NCBI GenBank assembly: GCA_945787735.1
Contig: CALZIQ010000024.1
Span: 2,501-35,456 of the forward strand
Length of the DNA stretch: 32,956 bases
Source of the DNA: an uncultured Chromatiaceae bacterium
Lineage (GTDB): Bacteria; Pseudomonadota; Gammaproteobacteria; Tenderiales; Tenderiaceae
Direction: 5' to 3'
The translations under genes were made by a program, and so were the position numbers. The notes below the pieces were generated by a model. That model saw nothing but the letters and a program-made list of their open reading frames with translations, was not told where the DNA came from and searched no databases. Positions 6,299 to 15,256 of the stretch are shown here, one piece after another. How positions within the stretch are numbered: the stretch's first letter is position 1; every line of letters begins with the position of its first letter.

Positions 6299-7249
6299 TT
6301 ATTCTTCATTAGCGACAAAAACACGCATGACATAGGCCGCAACCGCCGCAACTTGCGCATCATTTAGCACATGACGCCAGGCCGGCATGGTAGTACCGGC
6401 TAGACCATCGCGAATGACGGTTTGCAGTCGTTCATTCATCATGCCTTGCATTTTGTTTAGATTGCGCGGATGTGGTTCGAGAAAGGCCCCAATCCAATTT
6501 CGTCCCGTGCCGTCGGCAGCATGGCAAAAGGCGCAATTGGCCTGATAGAGTAGCTCGCCTTGTTTCTCCTGTGTCGACAACGCCTCCATCACCGGCACCT
6601 GGTCATGAATCGAATACGGCGTAGCGGCAGAGACCGCATCCGGGATGCGATGAGAATAACCACTGCGCGGAAACGACACCGCACGCGGATCCCAGGCAAT
6701 GCCTTCATCTACGACCTTGGCGCGATCATGGCAAGTGATACAACTGGCCATGAACAACTCACGGCCTTGCTGCTGTTCCGGCGTCAATTGCTCAAAAGCT
6801 GTGTCGAGTGGAATCTCACCAGTTGCGAAAGGAAAGGCAATGGCATAACGCTCATGCTCAGGCCAGCCATTGCCCTCGGTGTGATAACGCGTATTGAGCT
6901 TTTCGCTGTGCATGAAAGCCTGGCGGACAAAATCCACCACCAGCCCGATCTGTTCCGCATTCAGTGTATTACTGAAACCGGCCATACCAGTATCCATGCG
7001 GCCATCGGTGACGGATTTGATCATGCGCTCGCGTGGCAAATCCGCCAACCGAGTATTCGTAAAATCTCGCGGCGGAGGCGATAGATAGGTTGCCGCCAGG
7101 GTCTTGGCATCCCCGGCATAGCCGTGACAGAAATAACAGTAGTAGTTATAGAGATCACGCCCCTTTTCAAAGGCCGTGGCCGCCTGACTGCCGGCAGCAA
7201 TCTCAACGGTTGAAGGGATTGATTCAGCTTGGTCTAAGGGGCTTTTTTT
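6299..7249 (-). CDS. Triheme cytochrome c ORF, probably the 3' half of a hexaheme protein with 7234..8445
   Basis: Frame is open from 7249 to the stop at 6299 and carries CYFCHG, CITCHD and CAFCHA. The track's TTG start at 7048 excludes the first motif (about 7138-7124). I found no ATG/GTG/TTG in frame between the TAA at 7252-7250 and 7048. Confidence 0.75.
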   Translation of the reverse strand, partial: KKSPLDQAESIPSTVEIAAGSQAATAFEKGRDLYNYYCYFCHGYAGDAKTLAATYLSPPPRDFTNTRLADLPRERMIKSVTDGRMDTGMAGFSNTLNAEQIGLVVDFVRQAFMHSEKLNTRYHTEGNGWPEHERYAIAFPFATGEIPLDTAFEQLTPEQQQGRELFMASCITCHDRAKVVDEGIAWDPRAVSFPRSGYSHRIPDAVSAATPYSIHDQVPVMEALSTQEKQGELLYQANCAFCHAADGTGRNWIGAFLEPHPRNLNKMQGMMNERLQTVIRDGLAGTTMPAWRHVLNDAQVAAVAAYVMRVFVANEE

Positions 7250-7260
7250 TTATCCAGCAT
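7234..7260 (-). other. A9 homopolymer (7243-7251) followed by the stop of the upstream cytochrome ORF; candidate slippage site or indel
   Basis: Minus strand: ATG CTG GAT AAA AAA AAA GCC CCT TAG. A -1 shift gives AGC CCC TTA GAC CAA GCT GAA..., continuing in frame to CYFCHG. Confidence 0.7.
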
Positions 7261-8445
7261 TGTATCCAGCCCTGGACTTTCCAGAATCTCATCGGGATTG
7301 GGATGAATGAAATCCTGGTAGACAAACTCGGCCACATCAGCCAGCTGCTGAGCAGAAAGGACCTTACTCCAGGCCGGCATCACTGTCCCGGGTTTGCCGA
7401 TGCCGATGGCGCGAAACAGGGCGGGTCGATTCAGCATATTGCGCGAATCGACATGCAGGAAATTACGCGGTTTGGGCTGGATGAAATGAGACCTCGGCCC
7501 CAGACCATCACCACGCACGCCATGGCAGGTGCTGCAATTGCGCAAATAGATATCGCGGCCCGAACCAAAATCACCGACCAGACCACCCGGGAAAGGTGCA
7601 TTCATATCCACGGCATGTCCCTGGGCATGTTGCTCCAGACGCGGTGCCATGGCAGAGGATCCAATCGAGGACGGCGCACGCCCGTGCGGCGCAGATGCAC
7701 CTTGACCACCGCCAGTATGTCCTCCCATGCCGGCCGCCGCCCCGGAGAGATCCGTCATGCCGGCATCTGCCACAACCGGCCCTTTCATGAAAGTTTGGCG
7801 GATGTAATCTACTACAGATTCGATATCTTCTTCAGATAGACGGTTGGAAAATGACATCATGGCCGTCTCTTTGCGGCCAAAGCTCACCGAGGCAAGCATG
7901 CGCTTGCGCGTTAAAATGCGACGTGCCTGTGGCGAAGTGAAATTGCGCGGTGGCGGGTTAAGTACCGAATTGGTCCAGGTGGCACCATTGCCACGGTCGC
8001 CATGACAAACACGACAGTGCTCTTCATAGATTTCCCGGCCACGCTGCAGGCGTGGCTCGTCCACCGCCAGCTCTTCTTCGGATGGCGGCAGCTGCATAAA
8101 ACTACGACGGATATAATCCACCACCCCTTCAATCTGGGCCATGTTCAGCCGACCGAGCCAACCTATCATGGCCGTGCCTTCGCGGCCCTGCACCACTGAG
8201 GTGATCATGCGCTTGCGATTCAGCTCTGCCGCCGCGCCTGGAGTGGAGAAATCGCGCGGTTTCGGATCAAGCCCAAAACGGGCTCGGCTCTGACCATCCC
8301 CCCGGTCGCCATGACAAACCGCACAATTTTCACGGTAGATCTGACCCGCCTCATTCATGGAAATAGGTTCAGCTGCCGCCAATGTAGGTAGTGCAAGCAG
8401 CAAAAACAATGATGAAACCAGAGATTTAGAAATTGAAAACCGCAT
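7234..8445 (-). CDS. Periplasmic triheme cytochrome c with tandem repeated cytochrome c domains
   Basis: Likely start MRFSISKSLVSSLFLLLALPTLAAAEP (ATG at 8445, signal peptide). CAVCHG, CRVCHG and CSTCHG motifs, with PKPRDF...LNRKRMITSVVQGREGTAM repeats. Confidence 0.88.
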   Translation of the reverse strand: MRFSISKSLVSSLFLLLALPTLAAAEPISMNEAGQIYRENCAVCHGDRGDGQSRARFGLDPKPRDFSTPGAAAELNRKRMITSVVQGREGTAMIGWLGRLNMAQIEGVVDYIRRSFMQLPPSEEELAVDEPRLQRGREIYEEHCRVCHGDRGNGATWTNSVLNPPPRNFTSPQARRILTRKRMLASVSFGRKETAMMSFSNRLSEEDIESVVDYIRQTFMKGPVVADAGMTDLSGAAAGMGGHTGGGQGASAPHGRAPSSIGSSAMAPRLEQHAQGHAVDMNAPFPGGLVGDFGSGRDIYLRNCSTCHGVRGDGLGPRSHFIQPKPRNFLHVDSRNMLNRPALFRAIGIGKPGTVMPAWSKVLSAQQLADVAEFVYQDFIHPNPDEILESPGLDTMLDKKKAP

Positions 8446-8546
8446 CCGTCGCCTTACAATCAGGACATCTTGAGCTTGGCCGCAGAGAGAAATCCTGCCA
8501 ACCATCCAGGAACGGGATATTTTCCACTAAAATAACCATTTGCGCT

Positions 8547-8608: not shown

Positions 8609-9355
8609 GTGTTGAAACGCTTAACAAAAAACCTGTTTAGCCTGGCCTGCTTATCCCTGGCAATATCTGCCACGGCTGAAGCCGGCACCATCTTGGGCTC
8701 CAAACACGATTTTACCGGCCTTAATGAACGAGCCGGTGTCGCGGCCATGTCGGGGCTGGCATTCGCCGATTACGGCAATCCCTGTGTCTATTGCCACCTG
8801 CCACCTGAAAAGGAGGGGGCCGACTCGACCACATTGGGTGGCATTCCAGGCTGGAACCGTTTCAAACCCGCAGTCGATACTGCTTACGATCTCTACGATT
8901 CGCGCACACTCGACAATAAAGTCAAAACCCCTAGCCCGATTAGCTTGCTCTGCCTCTCTTGCCACGACGGCACTCTTGCAGTGGATATGACCGTATTCCA
9001 ACCTGACACCTGGGACAGCAGCGAGGACGCTTCGCTGCATTTACGCCTAAATGGCGGTGACAGCCTGATGAACTGCGGCAAGTGTCATAACGGCATCGCC
9101 GCCCACAGCATCGAAATCAAACACATCGGCACCGACCTGCAAAATGATCACCCTATCTCAATGGAATATGCTGGCCTGAACACTAAAGACCCCGATTTCC
9201 GCCCTGTCGATCATGACTATGGTTTTGACAATGGCGTGAAGCTCTACGACAACAAGGTCGAGTGCGCTACTTGTCATAATGTCCACAACCCCGACGTCAA
9301 TCTGTTGTTGAGAACTGGCGCCGAGCGGCTGTGCGAAACATGCCATATCAAATAA
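8609..9355 (+). CDS. Secreted pentaheme c-type cytochrome, OmcE-like filament (nanowire) candidate
   Basis: Track start at 8561 is TTG; GTG at 8609 gives VLKRLTKNLFSLACLSLAISATAEA|GTILGSKHDF with a normal signal peptide. Heme motifs CVYCH, CLSCH, CGKCH, CATCH, CETCH. Layout SKHD...CVYCHLP...WNR...LCLSCHDGTLAVD...LGTDLQNDHPIS...VECATCHNVHNPD...LLR...LCETCHIK. Confidence 0.8.
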   Translation: MLKRLTKNLFSLACLSLAISATAEAGTILGSKHDFTGLNERAGVAAMSGLAFADYGNPCVYCHLPPEKEGADSTTLGGIPGWNRFKPAVDTAYDLYDSRTLDNKVKTPSPISLLCLSCHDGTLAVDMTVFQPDTWDSSEDASLHLRLNGGDSLMNCGKCHNGIAAHSIEIKHIGTDLQNDHPISMEYAGLNTKDPDFRPVDHDYGFDNGVKLYDNKVECATCHNVHNPDVNLLLRTGAERLCETCHIK

Positions 9356-10419
9356 ACCCCCGGTTACACCGATTCGTTTTATTGCTGGTATCACTTGCTC
9401 TGGCAGCCTGCAGCAGTGCCCCGCCGATGGAGGACTTCGATCCTCCCGTCTATCCCGCTGCACCCGACGAACCACGCTTTATCTTTGAGCGTTCACTGCG
9501 TTACAACACCAACGTAGAACCTCTCACTGCCAGCAAAAAGCTACGCCGTTATGCCACCGGCGAGGTCGATGACATCAAAGGCCTAGTCAAACCCTATGGC
9601 GTCGCCGCCCACAATGGACGTGTCTACGTCACCGACACGGTACAACGTTCGGTAGTCATGTTTGATATCAGCAACAGCAGCTACAAAGAATTTGGCAACG
9701 AAAAACCAGGCCAGCTGTTCAAACCAGTCGGCATTGATATCTCCAGCGAGGGGGAGGTGTTTGTTGCCGATGTCAGCGCCCAACGCATTGTCGTGTTTGA
9801 TTCTGAAGGGACTTTCCTGCGCTTTATCGGTGGCAAAGACCATTTCAGACGGCCGGCCGGTGTTGCTGTCTCCGCCGATGCCAGCAAAGTCTATGTTATC
9901 GACACCGGCGGCGTGGACAGCCAAGCACACCACATGTTTATCTTCGATGCCCATAGTGGTGAACATCTGTCCACCGTGGGTGAGCGTGGCAGTGAAGCCG
10001 GTCAGTTTAATCTGCCACTGCAGATCAGCAGCGCCGCAGATGGCACTGTCTATGTCGTCGACAAGGGTAACTTTCGCATCCAGTCTTTTGATGCCGACGG
10101 CAATCATCTGGCAAGCTTCGGCAGCATCGGTCGTTATCCGGGACAGTTTTTCAGCCCCAAAGGCGTTAGCACTGACAGAGATGGCAACATCTATGTGGTC
10201 GATACCGCCTTCGGCAACACCCAGATTTTCAACCCGGCTGGCGAACTATTGATGGTGATCGGCCAACGCGGCCAGTCCAGCGCCCCGGGCAATTACATGC
10301 TACCTGCCGGCATCGATGTAGATGAAGATGGGCGTATTTACATTGCCGACCAGTTTTTCAGGAAGGTGGATGTCTATAAACCGATAGGGCTGGAAGAAGA
10401 AAACAGCTCGGCGAAATAA
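9340..10419 (+). CDS. NHL-repeat beta-propeller lipoprotein
   Basis: Lipobox FVLLLVSLALAAC|SS; repeated blades such as VKPYGVAAHNGRVYVTDTVQRSVVMFD, FKPVGIDISSEGEVFVADVSAQRIVVFD and FFSPKGVSTDRDGNIYVVDTAFGNTQIF. Start could also be GTG 9331; overlaps the 3' end of the pentaheme gene. Confidence 0.9.
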   Translation: MPYQINPRLHRFVLLLVSLALAACSSAPPMEDFDPPVYPAAPDEPRFIFERSLRYNTNVEPLTASKKLRRYATGEVDDIKGLVKPYGVAAHNGRVYVTDTVQRSVVMFDISNSSYKEFGNEKPGQLFKPVGIDISSEGEVFVADVSAQRIVVFDSEGTFLRFIGGKDHFRRPAGVAVSADASKVYVIDTGGVDSQAHHMFIFDAHSGEHLSTVGERGSEAGQFNLPLQISSAADGTVYVVDKGNFRIQSFDADGNHLASFGSIGRYPGQFFSPKGVSTDRDGNIYVVDTAFGNTQIFNPAGELLMVIGQRGQSSAPGNYMLPAGIDVDEDGRIYIADQFFRKVDVYKPIGLEEENSSAK

Positions 10420-12882
10420 TTAGAGTTTCCAGGGTGAACAACGCAACCACTCAATCAGGTCATCGGCCGTTACCGGCGGGCACATGTAATATCCCTGCAC
10501 CGCATCACACCCCATCTCTTTGAGCGTGTCATAAATCTGTTTGCTTTCCACCCCTTCAGCCACCACAGTAATCCCAATATTGTGAGCCAAGTCGATGATG
10601 GAGCGAACGATCACGGCATCACTTTCATCCTCCAGCATGCCGCTGACAAAGGACTTGTCGATCTTGAGCTCATCCACAGGCATCTGTTTCAGATGCGCCA
10701 ACGAAGAATAGCCGGTGCCAAAGTCATCGATCGACAGCTTTACCCCCATGGTGCTGAGACTATTTAAGACCTCGAGCGCACGACCAGGGTCGGCCATAAT
10801 CGCCGTCTCTGTAATCTCTAGTCGCAGACGACAGGCATTCGCCCCATTCTCTTCAATCAGATGTGCCACCTTATCTGGAAAACGCGGATCTTGCAGATTA
10901 CGCACAGACAGATTTACTGCCACATCCATCTGCATATCGTCATCATGAAAATTGCTGCACGTATTCAGCCCCGCTTTAAGCGCCCAAAGACTCAAAGGTG
11001 CAATCAGGCCGGTCTGCTCTGCCAGCGGCACAAACTCATCTGGATACATCAAACCATGCTCAGGATGGCGCCAACGCACTAATGATTCCACGCCACAGAC
11101 CTTGCCCGAACTGAGATCGACCTTGGGTTGGAAGTAGAGCTGTAACTGATTCTGCTCGATCCCACCGCGCAATTCACCCAGCAGGGCAAGGTTGCGTAGG
11201 CTATGCTGATCACTGGAGGGATCATACACCGCTGCACCGCGATGCTCGCGCTTGGCCACATACATAGCCACATCGGCGCGTTGAAGCAGGGTCACCTCAT
11301 CCTCACCATGCTGTGGGTATTGGGTAATGCCGATACTCCCTCCCACATGCAGGACCTGCTCACCGATCGAAAGTGGCTCCTCGATTGCATTCAACAATTT
11401 ATCTGCAAGCGAGCGGGCCTGCTCCAGAGTGGTATTGGGCAGCAGGATTGCGAACTCGTCACCGCCGAGACGGGCTATGGTATCCGACTCACGCAGAATT
11501 TCACGCATACGTTCCGATACCTGTTGCAATACCGCATCACCATATTGATGCCCCAGCGTGTCATTTATATCCTTGAATCGATCCAGATCCATCACCAGCA
11601 AAGCCAGCTCATGGTGCTCGCGCTGCGCCAGCAAGATGCCTTGGCGAATACGATCAGACAATAGAGAGCGGTTGGGTAATTCGGTCAAGGCATCATGCAA
11701 GGCCTGATGCTGCAAGGCCTCAGTCTGACGTTTGTTTTCAGTTATATCCCGACCGATTGCAACAAAGAAACGTCGTTCACCGATATGCATCTCACTCAGG
11801 GCGAGTTCGAGCGGAAAATTTGAACCATCCTTACGCTGACCAACAAGTTCCGTGCGGTTATTGATCAGCCGGCCTTTACCAGTGACCAGATAACGGTGGA
11901 TATATCGGTCATGCTCCTTGCCATAGGGTTCCGGCATCAGCACCGAAACATTCTGACCGATCAAATCATCCGGTTCGTAACCGAACATCTTTTCGACGGC
12001 ATGATTAATGGTATCGATAACGCCATTTTCATCGGTAGTGATAATGGCATCAAACGCATTTTCGGTGACGGCTCGTATGCGCGTCTCATTGGAAACTAGA
12101 TCTTCCTGCATCTGGTTGAACACTGAAGCAACCTGACCCAACTCATCACGCCACTGCATTGGCAGCTCTACATGGCGCTCACCCGCCCCGACCTGCATAA
12201 TGGCGTCTTTGAGGCGATTAATCGGATTCAACACGCTGACACGCAAAATCACCAACACTGTCAGCGCAATCATCAACACCAGCAAAGCGGCAATCGCCCA
12301 AAGGCTGATGCGCATTGACTCGATCCTCGCTACTCCCTTCTCACGCGACAGACTCAACTTTAATACACCACGCAGAGGACTGGGATCATAACCGTGACAG
12401 GTCAAACATTCCGTATTGGCCTCGATAGGTTGCAATACGGTGATCTCATCACGAAAACGCAGATCCAGCGCCACTTCGCCCTGCAACGCCTTTGTAAAAC
12501 TTCCTTCCGTGGGCATAGGCACATGCTGAGGCGGTGTCGACTCGCGTTCAAACACTGTATCACCAAGAAATTCATTTACTTGCTTGACCGAGGAAAGATC
12601 AGTAAAAGCCTCCACCCCATCGCGCCGCAGCACTTCAATATCCACTACCCCGGGGGCACCATGCATACTGTCGAGCCATTCGCGAGCCATCACCCCCTGG
12701 CCATTCAGCATCAGGATACGCAGACTGGCCAGCAAGGTCTGCGCATGGCTTCTAGCCTGGTCTATCTCTTCATTCTGGATTGCACGTGTAAGCTGACGCT
12801 CGATAAGGACGCCCGACACCAGCACCAGTACCAACAGCACTGACGATAAAATCAGCGCCAAGCGTATACCAAGACTCTTCAC
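10420..12882 (-). CDS. Membrane c-di-GMP signalling protein: periplasmic CxxCH sensor, HAMP, PAS, GGDEF, EAL
   Basis: Two TM segments flanking a periplasmic region with ANTECLTCHGYDPSPLRGVLKLSLS; HAMP; PAS (NVSVLMPEPYGKEHDRYIHRYLVTG); ARLGGDEFAIL; EAL-type domain beginning VCGVESLVRWRHPEHG with DDFGTGYSSL. Confidence 0.93.
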   Translation of the reverse strand: MKSLGIRLALILSSVLLVLVLVSGVLIERQLTRAIQNEEIDQARSHAQTLLASLRILMLNGQGVMAREWLDSMHGAPGVVDIEVLRRDGVEAFTDLSSVKQVNEFLGDTVFERESTPPQHVPMPTEGSFTKALQGEVALDLRFRDEITVLQPIEANTECLTCHGYDPSPLRGVLKLSLSREKGVARIESMRISLWAIAALLVLMIALTVLVILRVSVLNPINRLKDAIMQVGAGERHVELPMQWRDELGQVASVFNQMQEDLVSNETRIRAVTENAFDAIITTDENGVIDTINHAVEKMFGYEPDDLIGQNVSVLMPEPYGKEHDRYIHRYLVTGKGRLINNRTELVGQRKDGSNFPLELALSEMHIGERRFFVAIGRDITENKRQTEALQHQALHDALTELPNRSLLSDRIRQGILLAQREHHELALLVMDLDRFKDINDTLGHQYGDAVLQQVSERMREILRESDTIARLGGDEFAILLPNTTLEQARSLADKLLNAIEEPLSIGEQVLHVGGSIGITQYPQHGEDEVTLLQRADVAMYVAKREHRGAAVYDPSSDQHSLRNLALLGELRGGIEQNQLQLYFQPKVDLSSGKVCGVESLVRWRHPEHGLMYPDEFVPLAEQTGLIAPLSLWALKAGLNTCSNFHDDDMQMDVAVNLSVRNLQDPRFPDKVAHLIEENGANACRLRLEITETAIMADPGRALEVLNSLSTMGVKLSIDDFGTGYSSLAHLKQMPVDELKIDKSFVSGMLEDESDAVIVRSIIDLAHNIGITVVAEGVESKQIYDTLKEMGCDAVQGYYMCPPVTADDLIEWLRCSPWKL

Positions 12883-12902: not shown

Positions 12903-14129
12903 CTATTGGCCCCAACCCTGCTCGATGTGAGCAACCCCACCGTAGCTGCCGATCCATAAATCCCCCGCCCGACCATTGGTCATGGAAAAGACGTTTTCTG
13001 CATACAGACCATCATTCATAGTTTTGACGGAAAAAGTCTCACTGGCACGATCAAACCTTGCAAGACCCTTGCTGGTGCCAATCCAGAGATTCTCCTGCGG
13101 ATCGAGATAAAGCATGAAGATATGATTGGCCGGCAGACCGTCAAATGAAGTGTAATTCGTCCACTCACCATCCTTAAAACGCGCCAGTCCGGCGCCCCAG
13201 GTGCCGGCCCAAACGGTGCCGTCCTGCTGCACCTGCATGGAGATGACATAATTCGGATTGTAGGCCACATTCACATTTTGCAGCCCCTGCTCCTCTTTCT
13301 GGCGGGAATGGTGCATCGAGGCCTGCCCTGGGTCGCTCTTAAACTGAATCGCATTCTTCACGATTTCATAGTCGGCACCCAAGCCTTCCTCATGCTGCCA
13401 GTTGGTCCACTGATTATCTCGATATAAGGCCAACCCAGCCTCGGTGGCCAGCCAGATATCGCCATTGGCGCCCTCTTCCACGCCGTAAACCCAGGGGTTT
13501 GGCAGGCCGCCATTGGTATTTTCTACCGTAAAGGTTTGCCAGGCATCCGGATTATCAAAATCACCGCCACGGACAAGATTGGCGCCTGACCAGGTGGCAA
13601 TCCAAACATCACCATTGGCAAGTTTCATCACGTCATAGACAAACTGGTCCGCCAGACCTTGGGGAATATTGATGATCTGCCAGGTATCGGCCTCGGGATC
13701 GAACAGGGCCAGGCCTCCACCATAAGTGCCAATCGCCATACGGTGATCCAGACGACTGATATGAAAAATGCCATTGGATAACAGCCCCGCATTTTTATTA
13801 TTGAACAGTTGGTAATCATCCAGCTCGGTATCGTAACGGATCACCCCGCCCGAGGTGCCAACCCAAACATACTGGCCATCGGCATAGATGCTTTTGACAT
13901 TGCGGTTGCCTACCCGGAAGTGGCTAAAGCGCGGACCATCGGCGGCATCGGGAAACAAGGCCACGTCACGTTGCGCCTTTTGTTGTGTCGCAGGCGCGCT
14001 TGCTGCAGCTGGCTTCTGTTTAGCCACCGGCGCGTCACTACCACCTTGCTGTCCCAGTTGAAAGGCAGCTACGATGACAGCGGCGCCGACCAGCACGCCC
14101 AGTGCCACGAGAGTTGGATTAAACTTCAT
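12903..14129 (-). CDS. Membrane-anchored two-component-regulator-type propeller protein without kinase domain
   Basis: N-terminal TM MKFNPTLVALGVLVGAAVIVAAFQLG; repeats VWVGTSGGVIRYD, VWIATWSGANLVRG, IWLATEAGLALY, VWAGTWGAGLARF, LWIGTSKGLARFD, LWIGSYGGVAHI. Confidence 0.88.
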   Translation of the reverse strand: MKFNPTLVALGVLVGAAVIVAAFQLGQQGGSDAPVAKQKPAAASAPATQQKAQRDVALFPDAADGPRFSHFRVGNRNVKSIYADGQYVWVGTSGGVIRYDTELDDYQLFNNKNAGLLSNGIFHISRLDHRMAIGTYGGGLALFDPEADTWQIINIPQGLADQFVYDVMKLANGDVWIATWSGANLVRGGDFDNPDAWQTFTVENTNGGLPNPWVYGVEEGANGDIWLATEAGLALYRDNQWTNWQHEEGLGADYEIVKNAIQFKSDPGQASMHHSRQKEEQGLQNVNVAYNPNYVISMQVQQDGTVWAGTWGAGLARFKDGEWTNYTSFDGLPANHIFMLYLDPQENLWIGTSKGLARFDRASETFSVKTMNDGLYAENVFSMTNGRAGDLWIGSYGGVAHIEQGWGQ

Positions 14130-15256
14130 TCTGCTTCACCTGCATCCTGTTCTGTTTCAGCCTGTTGGCCAAAACGGGTCACGCCGCCGCGTGTGCCGAC
14201 CCAAACCTCATTGTTGGGTAAGACGGCTATGGTGTAGACATGCTCAGATAACAAGCCATCTTCGCGGCCATAGTTGTACCAGCGCTCACCATCGAAACGA
14301 CTCAAGCCGCGATTGGTGCCAAACCAGAAATTTCCGTCATCGCCCTCGGCAATACTGTAGACGATGTTACCGGCCAGGCCATTCTTGATGCTGTAATTAT
14401 TCCACTTTTCACCATCGAAACGACTCACACCGCCCCCCCAGGTGCCAGCCCATACCTGGTCGTTTTTGTCCACGTGGATTGAAAAAATATAGTTGGGGTT
14501 GTAGGTAGACTGGCCTTCAGCCATTACATTTAGATCGTGACGCTCACGCGTACCCAGTCCGGTATTGAGGCTAATGGGCAGGTTTTCATCATTCGCGGCA
14601 CCCAAGCCCTCTTTGTGGGTCCAGGCACGCCAGCGCTCACCATTAAACATAGAGACACCACCTTCGGTGCCAAACCAGACCTGCTGTTTTGAGTCGACGC
14701 CAATACCGTAGACCCACTCATTCACAAGCTCATCGAAATAGGTCTTGAATTCGCCCGTGGCCGGATCCCACAAATTGGCGCCGGCCCAGGTGCCGATCCA
14801 GACCTTGCCATCGGCCTGTTGATTGAAACTGTAGACCCAGTAATCGGCCAGACCATGCATGGGGAAAAACACCTGCCAGTCATCCGCCTTGTAACGCGAA
14901 CTGCCGCCGCCATTGGTACCAAACCATTTATAGTCATCCTGATCAACAAAGATGGCAAACACATATTCATTGGCCAGACCATCGGCACGGGTAAAGGTAT
15001 TGCGGGGGGATTGATCGGTCAGATTCACTTCATGCACACCGACCGAGGTACCAACCCAGATGCTGTTCGCCGTCGGATCCAAGGCTAGCGAACGCACATA
15101 GACCTCGCGGCCAACCTCGAAGGCATCAATAACCTTCCATGGGTCAATTACCTCAGTTGACTGATCCGCGACCGCAGTGGCATCCGGTTTTGATTCCTGC
15201 GAATCGGAACATCCCGCTGCCAGCAGAGCAGCGAACAACAGGGCAAATACCCGCAT
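14126..15256 (-). CDS. Two-component-regulator-type propeller lipoprotein, paralog of 12903..14129
   Basis: Lipobox MRVFALLFAALLAAGC|SD; repeats IWVGTSVGVHEV, VWIGTWAGANLWD, VWFGTEGGVSMF, VWAGTWGGGVSRFD, FWFGTNRGLSRFD, VWVGTRGGVTRFG. Its 3' end overlaps the next gene by 4 nt. Confidence 0.9.
   Translation of the reverse strand: MRVFALLFAALLAAGCSDSQESKPDATAVADQSTEVIDPWKVIDAFEVGREVYVRSLALDPTANSIWVGTSVGVHEVNLTDQSPRNTFTRADGLANEYVFAIFVDQDDYKWFGTNGGGSSRYKADDWQVFFPMHGLADYWVYSFNQQADGKVWIGTWAGANLWDPATGEFKTYFDELVNEWVYGIGVDSKQQVWFGTEGGVSMFNGERWRAWTHKEGLGAANDENLPISLNTGLGTRERHDLNVMAEGQSTYNPNYIFSIHVDKNDQVWAGTWGGGVSRFDGEKWNNYSIKNGLAGNIVYSIAEGDDGNFWFGTNRGLSRFDGERWYNYGREDGLLSEHVYTIAVLPNNEVWVGTRGGVTRFGQQAETEQDAGEAE

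Follow-up and report, generated by a model that had tools for sequence, protein, structure and literature searches.

The DNA analysed here (referred to as the window) is a stretch of 32,956 nucleotides that forms part of a 3.06-Mb draft genome (G000, contig C24). Positions 8609–9355 of the forward strand, stop codon included, contain an ORF predicted to encode a secreted pentaheme c-type cytochrome of 248 aa. The ORF begins with GTG, which aligns with the ATG starts of relatives. Residues 1–25 (8609–8683) have the hydrophobic core and AxA site of a Sec signal peptide, cleavage of which at AEA/G would leave a mature protein starting with GTILGSKHDF, and alignment of the relatives revealed no conserved lipobox cysteine in this region. 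The five CxxCH motifs are CVYCH (heme 1, 8783–8797), which is followed by LPP where OmcE has TPH, CLSCH (heme 2, 8951–8965), CGKCH (9074–9088), CATCH (9263–9277), which corresponds to OmcE heme 3, and CETCH (9332–9346), which corresponds to OmcE heme 4. When the residues were shuffled 200,000 times, no shuffled version included more than two CxxCH, compared to five in the real protein. An earlier note on this DNA had described a signal peptide with a mature N-terminus near GTILGSKHDF, five CxxCH and a particular order of motifs, and each of these was found in the sequence as described.

The gene immediately downstream (9340–10419, forward strand) starts 16 bases before the end of the cytochrome gene and encodes a predicted six-bladed NHL beta-propeller lipoprotein with the lipobox LAAC. 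An NHL gene is found downstream of the pentaheme gene and on the same strand in all 71 of the relatives identified among 84,980 species, and in most of them its nearest ATG is located within the pentaheme gene, 15 or 24 bases from the end. The NHL protein of the window is also 30 % identical over its full length to an NHL protein encoded upstream of an undecaheme cytochrome gene on another contig (C53) of the same genome. In Geoalkalibacter ferrihydriticus, too, a locus encoding two NHL proteins has been reported to contain an OmcE homologue (PMC12016550).

The closest match to the pentaheme protein in the PDB was the OmcE filament of Geobacter sulfurreducens (7TFS; phmmer E value 2.9e-14, residues 12–248), followed by 9YUQ, a putative multiheme cytochrome c with 16 chains (5.7e-10), and phmmer found no convincing match in the PDB beyond these two. 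A profile built from 26 relatives retrieved the same pair at 1.6e-21 and 7.6e-15, respectively, and the relationship to OmcE that the earlier note had recognized is hence recovered by both approaches. A core consisting of KH[DN], CxxCH, WNR, CxSCHDG, DLxNDHP, ECxxCHxxH and LCxxCHxK is common to the window family, OmcE, the tetraheme paralogues, the N-terminal domain of the undecaheme cytochrome and a second group of pentahemes described below. Its four CxxCH and the histidines of KH[DN], NDHP and CHxxH are all present and invariant in the window family. With OmcE itself the window protein shares homology over the full length, including KHD, WNR, CxSCHDG, LGTDLxNDHP, CxxCHxVH and LCxxCHxK, as well as Sec-dependent secretion and a mature chain of about 210–225 residues. 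The PDB matches together with the common core support membership by descent well, and the pentaheme is almost certainly an OmcE-family protein. Pfam matches to cytochromes of the c7/c3 type were also found, but these are centred mainly on the last hemes, and the homology to OmcE is stronger. Assignment as a plain periplasmic c3/c7 cytochrome was rejected on these grounds. Neither OmcS (6EF8) nor OmcZ was among the phmmer matches up to an E value of 10, and membership of either group was also rejected; those proteins contain six and eight hemes, respectively, compared to five here. AlphaFold2 models of the monomer, made from alignments of 61 and 69 rows, had pLDDT values of 35 and 41, too low to be read for fold or heme geometry.

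OmcE itself contains four hemes. In this group, five CxxCH are found in 69 of the 71 relatives, the exceptions being L071, where the protein is incomplete, and L074 from the Magnetococcales, which has four. CGKCH is missing from OmcE and from the tetraheme paralogues, and the family alignment supports the fifth heme having been inserted after OmcE heme 2 and before OmcE heme 3, in line with the suggestion in the earlier note that CGKCHNG represents an added heme.

The note had also placed the protein in the Gammaproteobacteria, and the genome is indeed from Candidatus Tenderia. The nearest relatives of the pentaheme include one from a Candidatus Tenderia sp. (89 %). A further genome (G005) belongs to the same genus as the window genome, and the first 6,000 bases of a 106,908-base contig in it are identical to plasmid CP013100.1 from Candidatus Tenderia electrophaga (Biocathode MCL), a cathode-oxidizing electroautotroph. 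Hence, the organism from which the window derives is a close relative of this electroautotroph. Members of the pentaheme family occur in roughly twelve or more families of Gammaproteobacteria, and median identity among the relatives is 69 % for the pentaheme compared to 54 % for the NHL protein and 46 and 56 % for the products of two divergently oriented cytochrome ORFs.

In one subclade, a second OmcE-like pentaheme of about 340–360 aa is encoded downstream of the NHL gene (L043, L047, L049–L052, L055–L059, L063–L066 and L075), and all of these except L058 include the extra heme. In a tree built without the insert columns, the window pentaheme family formed a single clade (support 100/100) apart from the tetraheme and undecaheme relatives. 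Support for its grouping with the second pentahemes was moderate (81/95), and the extra heme may have originated only once for both pentaheme families.

OmcE-like paralogues accompany the pentaheme with great regularity. In a sample of 369 genomes from the class, they were found in 32 of 32 genomes with a pentaheme but only 19 of the 337 without one, the nominal P value of 4e-33 being inflated by shared ancestry. In a sample of 399 genomes from the phylum, a pair consisting of the tetraheme and a protein of about 830 aa was present in other lineages, and the pentaheme was present only in the window's own genome.

Within the genome and genus of the window, the co-occurring paralogues belong to the Tenderia cathode cluster. 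The first genes of this cluster in the window genome (G000:C53:6260-18807; L076) encode a tetraheme OmcE-like protein and a SurA/PPIC isomerase, and further genes encode two triheme cytochromes on either side of a 530-aa protein, two NHL proteins, a 617-aa beta-rich protein with the look of a beta-barrel but no Pfam match, and a cytochrome with 11 hemes (undecaheme) whose N-terminus is OmcE-like. The counterpart in Ca. T. electrophaga (G005:C1:3599630-3610219) has three trihemes and is separated by about 24 kb from the pentaheme operon, the pentaheme gene of which is at 3634624-3635382 on the reverse strand of the G005 chromosome. From its gene order and heme counts it appears to correspond to Tel_16515–Tel_16545. 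The triheme and TPR genes Tel_16515–16530 showed some of the highest expression on the cathode, and the undecaheme cytochrome Tel_16545 was proposed as a route of extracellular electron transfer on cathodes (PMC5371394). The tetraheme and undecaheme (Tel_16545-type) proteins resemble the window protein in sharing the core and in being clustered with NHL beta-propellers, but they lack the extra heme, and their cluster adds the prolyl isomerase, the apparent beta-barrel and the triheme cytochromes.

As the earlier note had anticipated in counting at least seven histidines outside CxxCH as enough for bis-His ligation of five hemes, seven such histidines are present. Across 70 aligned sequences exactly five of them are invariant, and the remaining two, H172 and H202, are found in 63 % and 13 %, respectively. 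Three of the five, H33 in KHD (8705–8707), H181 in NDHP (9149–9151) and H226 in CHNVH (9284–9286), are universal in the OmcE family and are candidate distal ligands. The others, H144 (9038–9040) and H166 (9104–9106), are new in the window family, which has also gained CGKCH. As there is one invariant free histidine per heme, bis-His ligation is possible for all five.

OmcS polymerizes when heme 5 of a subunit receives His16 of the preceding one as a ligand (PMC13319180), and by sequence position this histidine is the histidine of CHTMH in mature OmcS. OmcE is described as having an inter-subunit coordination pattern in common with OmcS and as superposing on OmcS hemes 1–4 (PMC9473688). By analogy, we infer that the bridging residue in OmcE is the histidine of CHTPH, which is equivalent in position to His16. 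This histidine follows heme 1 in none of the 70 window-family sequences, which have CVYCHLPP in its place, though it is retained in 7TFS, 9YUQ, the tetraheme, undecaheme and Magnetococcales proteins, and the second pentahemes. 9YUQ is a tetraheme with the same four-heme core and the ligand set of OmcE. If CHTPH is taken as the bridge, the window pentaheme family has probably lost the inter-subunit histidine of OmcE. The earlier note had instead raised the histidine of SKHD (H33) as a possible bridge between subunits, and this is probably wrong as the residue matching His16 is a different one. A special inter-subunit role for H33 is also doubted because all OmcE-like proteins have this histidine, even the 920-aa undecaheme in its N-terminal domain.

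The second pentaheme family is informative here. It includes the extra heme at the same place, preceded by a histidine that aligns with H144, and yet it retains CHTPH; H166 is unique to the window family. These features suggest H144 as the ligand of the extra heme and H166 as a stand-in for the CHTPH ligand, though the alignment is not secure in these loops.

The apparent loss of the bridge in 70 of 70 sequences bears directly on whether the protein polymerizes. One reading is that it acts as a monomer or short oligomer, forming a surface adaptor for electron passage between the NHL lipoprotein or outer membrane and a wire made of the tetraheme paralogue. With H166 closing heme 3 within the subunit, a neighbour would no longer be needed. 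The constant pairing with the NHL lipoprotein, the restriction of the pentaheme to genomes with other OmcE-like genes (in the class sample) and the high sequence conservation are all consistent with such a role. However, the protein is closely homologous to OmcE, which does polymerize, and contact with the partner is putative, and we place the adaptor at just under an even chance.

A homopolymeric filament is held more tentatively, as is the particular form it would take, one with a rewired joint unlike that of OmcE in which H166 or the extra heme makes the connection. The homology to OmcE in both sequence and profile searches argues for a filament, as do the one-to-one match between invariant histidines and hemes and the gain of H166 exactly in the family where CHTPH is lost. 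A precedent is provided by OmcZ, which polymerizes without an inter-subunit histidine and has a branched side heme (PMC9473688), though it is an octaheme protein with no sequence match to the window protein. Against this, an odd number of in-line hemes disrupts the alternation of stacked and T-shaped pairs in wires of the OmcE type (PMC11936953), so that polymerization would call for either a heme that branches off to the side or one more stacked pair, as in OmcZ. The resulting wire would have five hemes per unit, one of them probably side-branching or stacked. Within this genome, the tetraheme paralogue, which retains CHTPH, is also a more obvious candidate for the wire.

A role in extracellular electron transfer appears quite likely, and on balance the protein is probably a secreted electron-transfer cytochrome of the OmcE family located at the outer surface. 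Electrons would hop along the OmcE-like core of four hemes, and the added CGKCH heme, probably ligated by H144, may provide a side exit or a new interface, with H166 assuming the ligand role of the lost CHTPH histidine. The NHL lipoprotein may be located at the outer membrane and help to assemble, anchor or dock the cytochrome. To judge from the lifestyle of one relative, electron flow in Tenderia is probably inward, from uptake to the respiratory chain.

The OmcS system appears to be similar in its working, in that a secreted wire cytochrome is accompanied by beta-propeller and prolyl-isomerase partners (GSU2500–GSU2493), though OmcS is a hexaheme protein. The OmcS assembly cluster contains prolyl isomerase, channel and beta-propeller parts. 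An eight-gene block has been linked to the maturation and secretion of OmcS (PMC12977616).

The slow evolution of the pentaheme complicates placement at the surface. The extracellular cytochromes of Geobacter have been described as fast-evolving (PMC12977616), whereas the pentaheme is more conserved than its module neighbours, and this might point to a role in the periplasm or in close association with a partner. It might, for instance, be a soluble periplasmic bis-His carrier that exchanges electrons with the divergently encoded class-I cytochrome and the respiratory chain. The Pfam c7/c3-type matches and the presence of the class-I gene in 68 of 71 relatives, with ccm genes nearby in about half, fit such a carrier. 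Nevertheless, the best matches are to extracellular OmcE and 9YUQ rather than to periplasmic c3/c7 proteins of known structure, and a lipoprotein partner suggests the outer membrane, making a periplasmic carrier improbable.

Relative to known OmcE, the extra heme and the altered joint predicted from the alignments are new, while the OmcE-family core is known. A literature search revealed neither a named family of OmcE-like pentahemes nor expression of the Tenderia pentaheme. Among the cytochrome wires covered by the reviews consulted, those with solved structures come from Geobacter and two archaea alone, with 9YUQ left out of this count. The family represents a natural experiment on the polymerization of OmcE, in which the bridge histidine has apparently been lost and a heme and histidines gained, and through it the need of a wire for an inter-subunit histidine becomes a testable question. 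The pentaheme family is also a specific candidate for a part in electron uptake by cathode-oxidizing Gammaproteobacteria such as Ca. Tenderia.

The class-I cytochrome gene lies on the opposite strand. ORF1 (7234–8505) encodes a signal peptide and three class-I cytochrome c domains and is syntenic in the 68 relatives noted above. ORF2 (6299–7249), also on the reverse strand and in the -1 frame relative to ORF1, adds three further CxxCH and is probably the second half of ORF1; no start codon for it precedes its first heme in the window. In the overlap is a run of nine A residues, AAAAAAAAA (7243–7251, reverse strand), a candidate site for programmed slippage or a -1 frameshift. It is the sole A/T run of at least 8 within the window, and conservation of the A9 run extends to about 60 species. 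Across 1.16 Mb of sequence from relatives, the ORF1/ORF2 junction holds 59 of the 67 A/T runs of at least 9, and the A9 run is also found in the Ca. T. electrophaga chromosome. A run of at least 8 is present at the junction in 60 sequences, including the window; in 54 of them it is in phase as AAA AAA AAA in ORF1, and in 52 of them a -1 shift at the run yields a clean six-heme protein. Two loci (L045 and L046) lack the run and have a single continuous six-heme ORF. Four more (L016, L028, L041 and L071) have neither run nor fusion and keep the two overlapping frames, and a short GGGAAAG stretch recurs at their junction. No ATG, GTG or TTG lies between the run and the first heme of ORF2 in 34 of the 60 sequences; some such codon is present in about half, and hence separate initiation of ORF2 is possible in some relatives. 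Overall, the comparative evidence is strong that programmed transcriptional slippage or -1 frameshifting at the A9 run apparently leads to both three-heme and six-heme products. If true, recoding in a respiratory cytochrome would here be conserved to an unusual degree.

Combining these elements, the family could represent a widespread gammaproteobacterial wire of the OmcE class with an odd number of hemes, in which the bridge histidine is replaced by a new heme and two histidines, possibly with an exposed side heme, and which serves electron uptake by electroautotrophs beside a slippage-made six-heme class-I partner. In this complete form the proposal is unlikely.

The gene beyond the NHL gene (10420–12882, reverse strand) encodes a GGDEF/EAL protein with PAS and HAMP domains and an N-terminal CxxCH (CLTCH). 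A CxxCH is found within the first 300 residues of this protein in 22 of 25 relatives, and it is possible that it is a c-heme redox sensor for c-di-GMP adjoining the cytochrome operon. It is followed by genes for two neighbouring Reg_prop beta-propeller proteins (12903–15256, reverse strand), next to a small class-I cytochrome and a ccm operon, and the stretch from the Reg_prop pair through the class-I cytochrome to ccm is syntenic in about half of the relatives.
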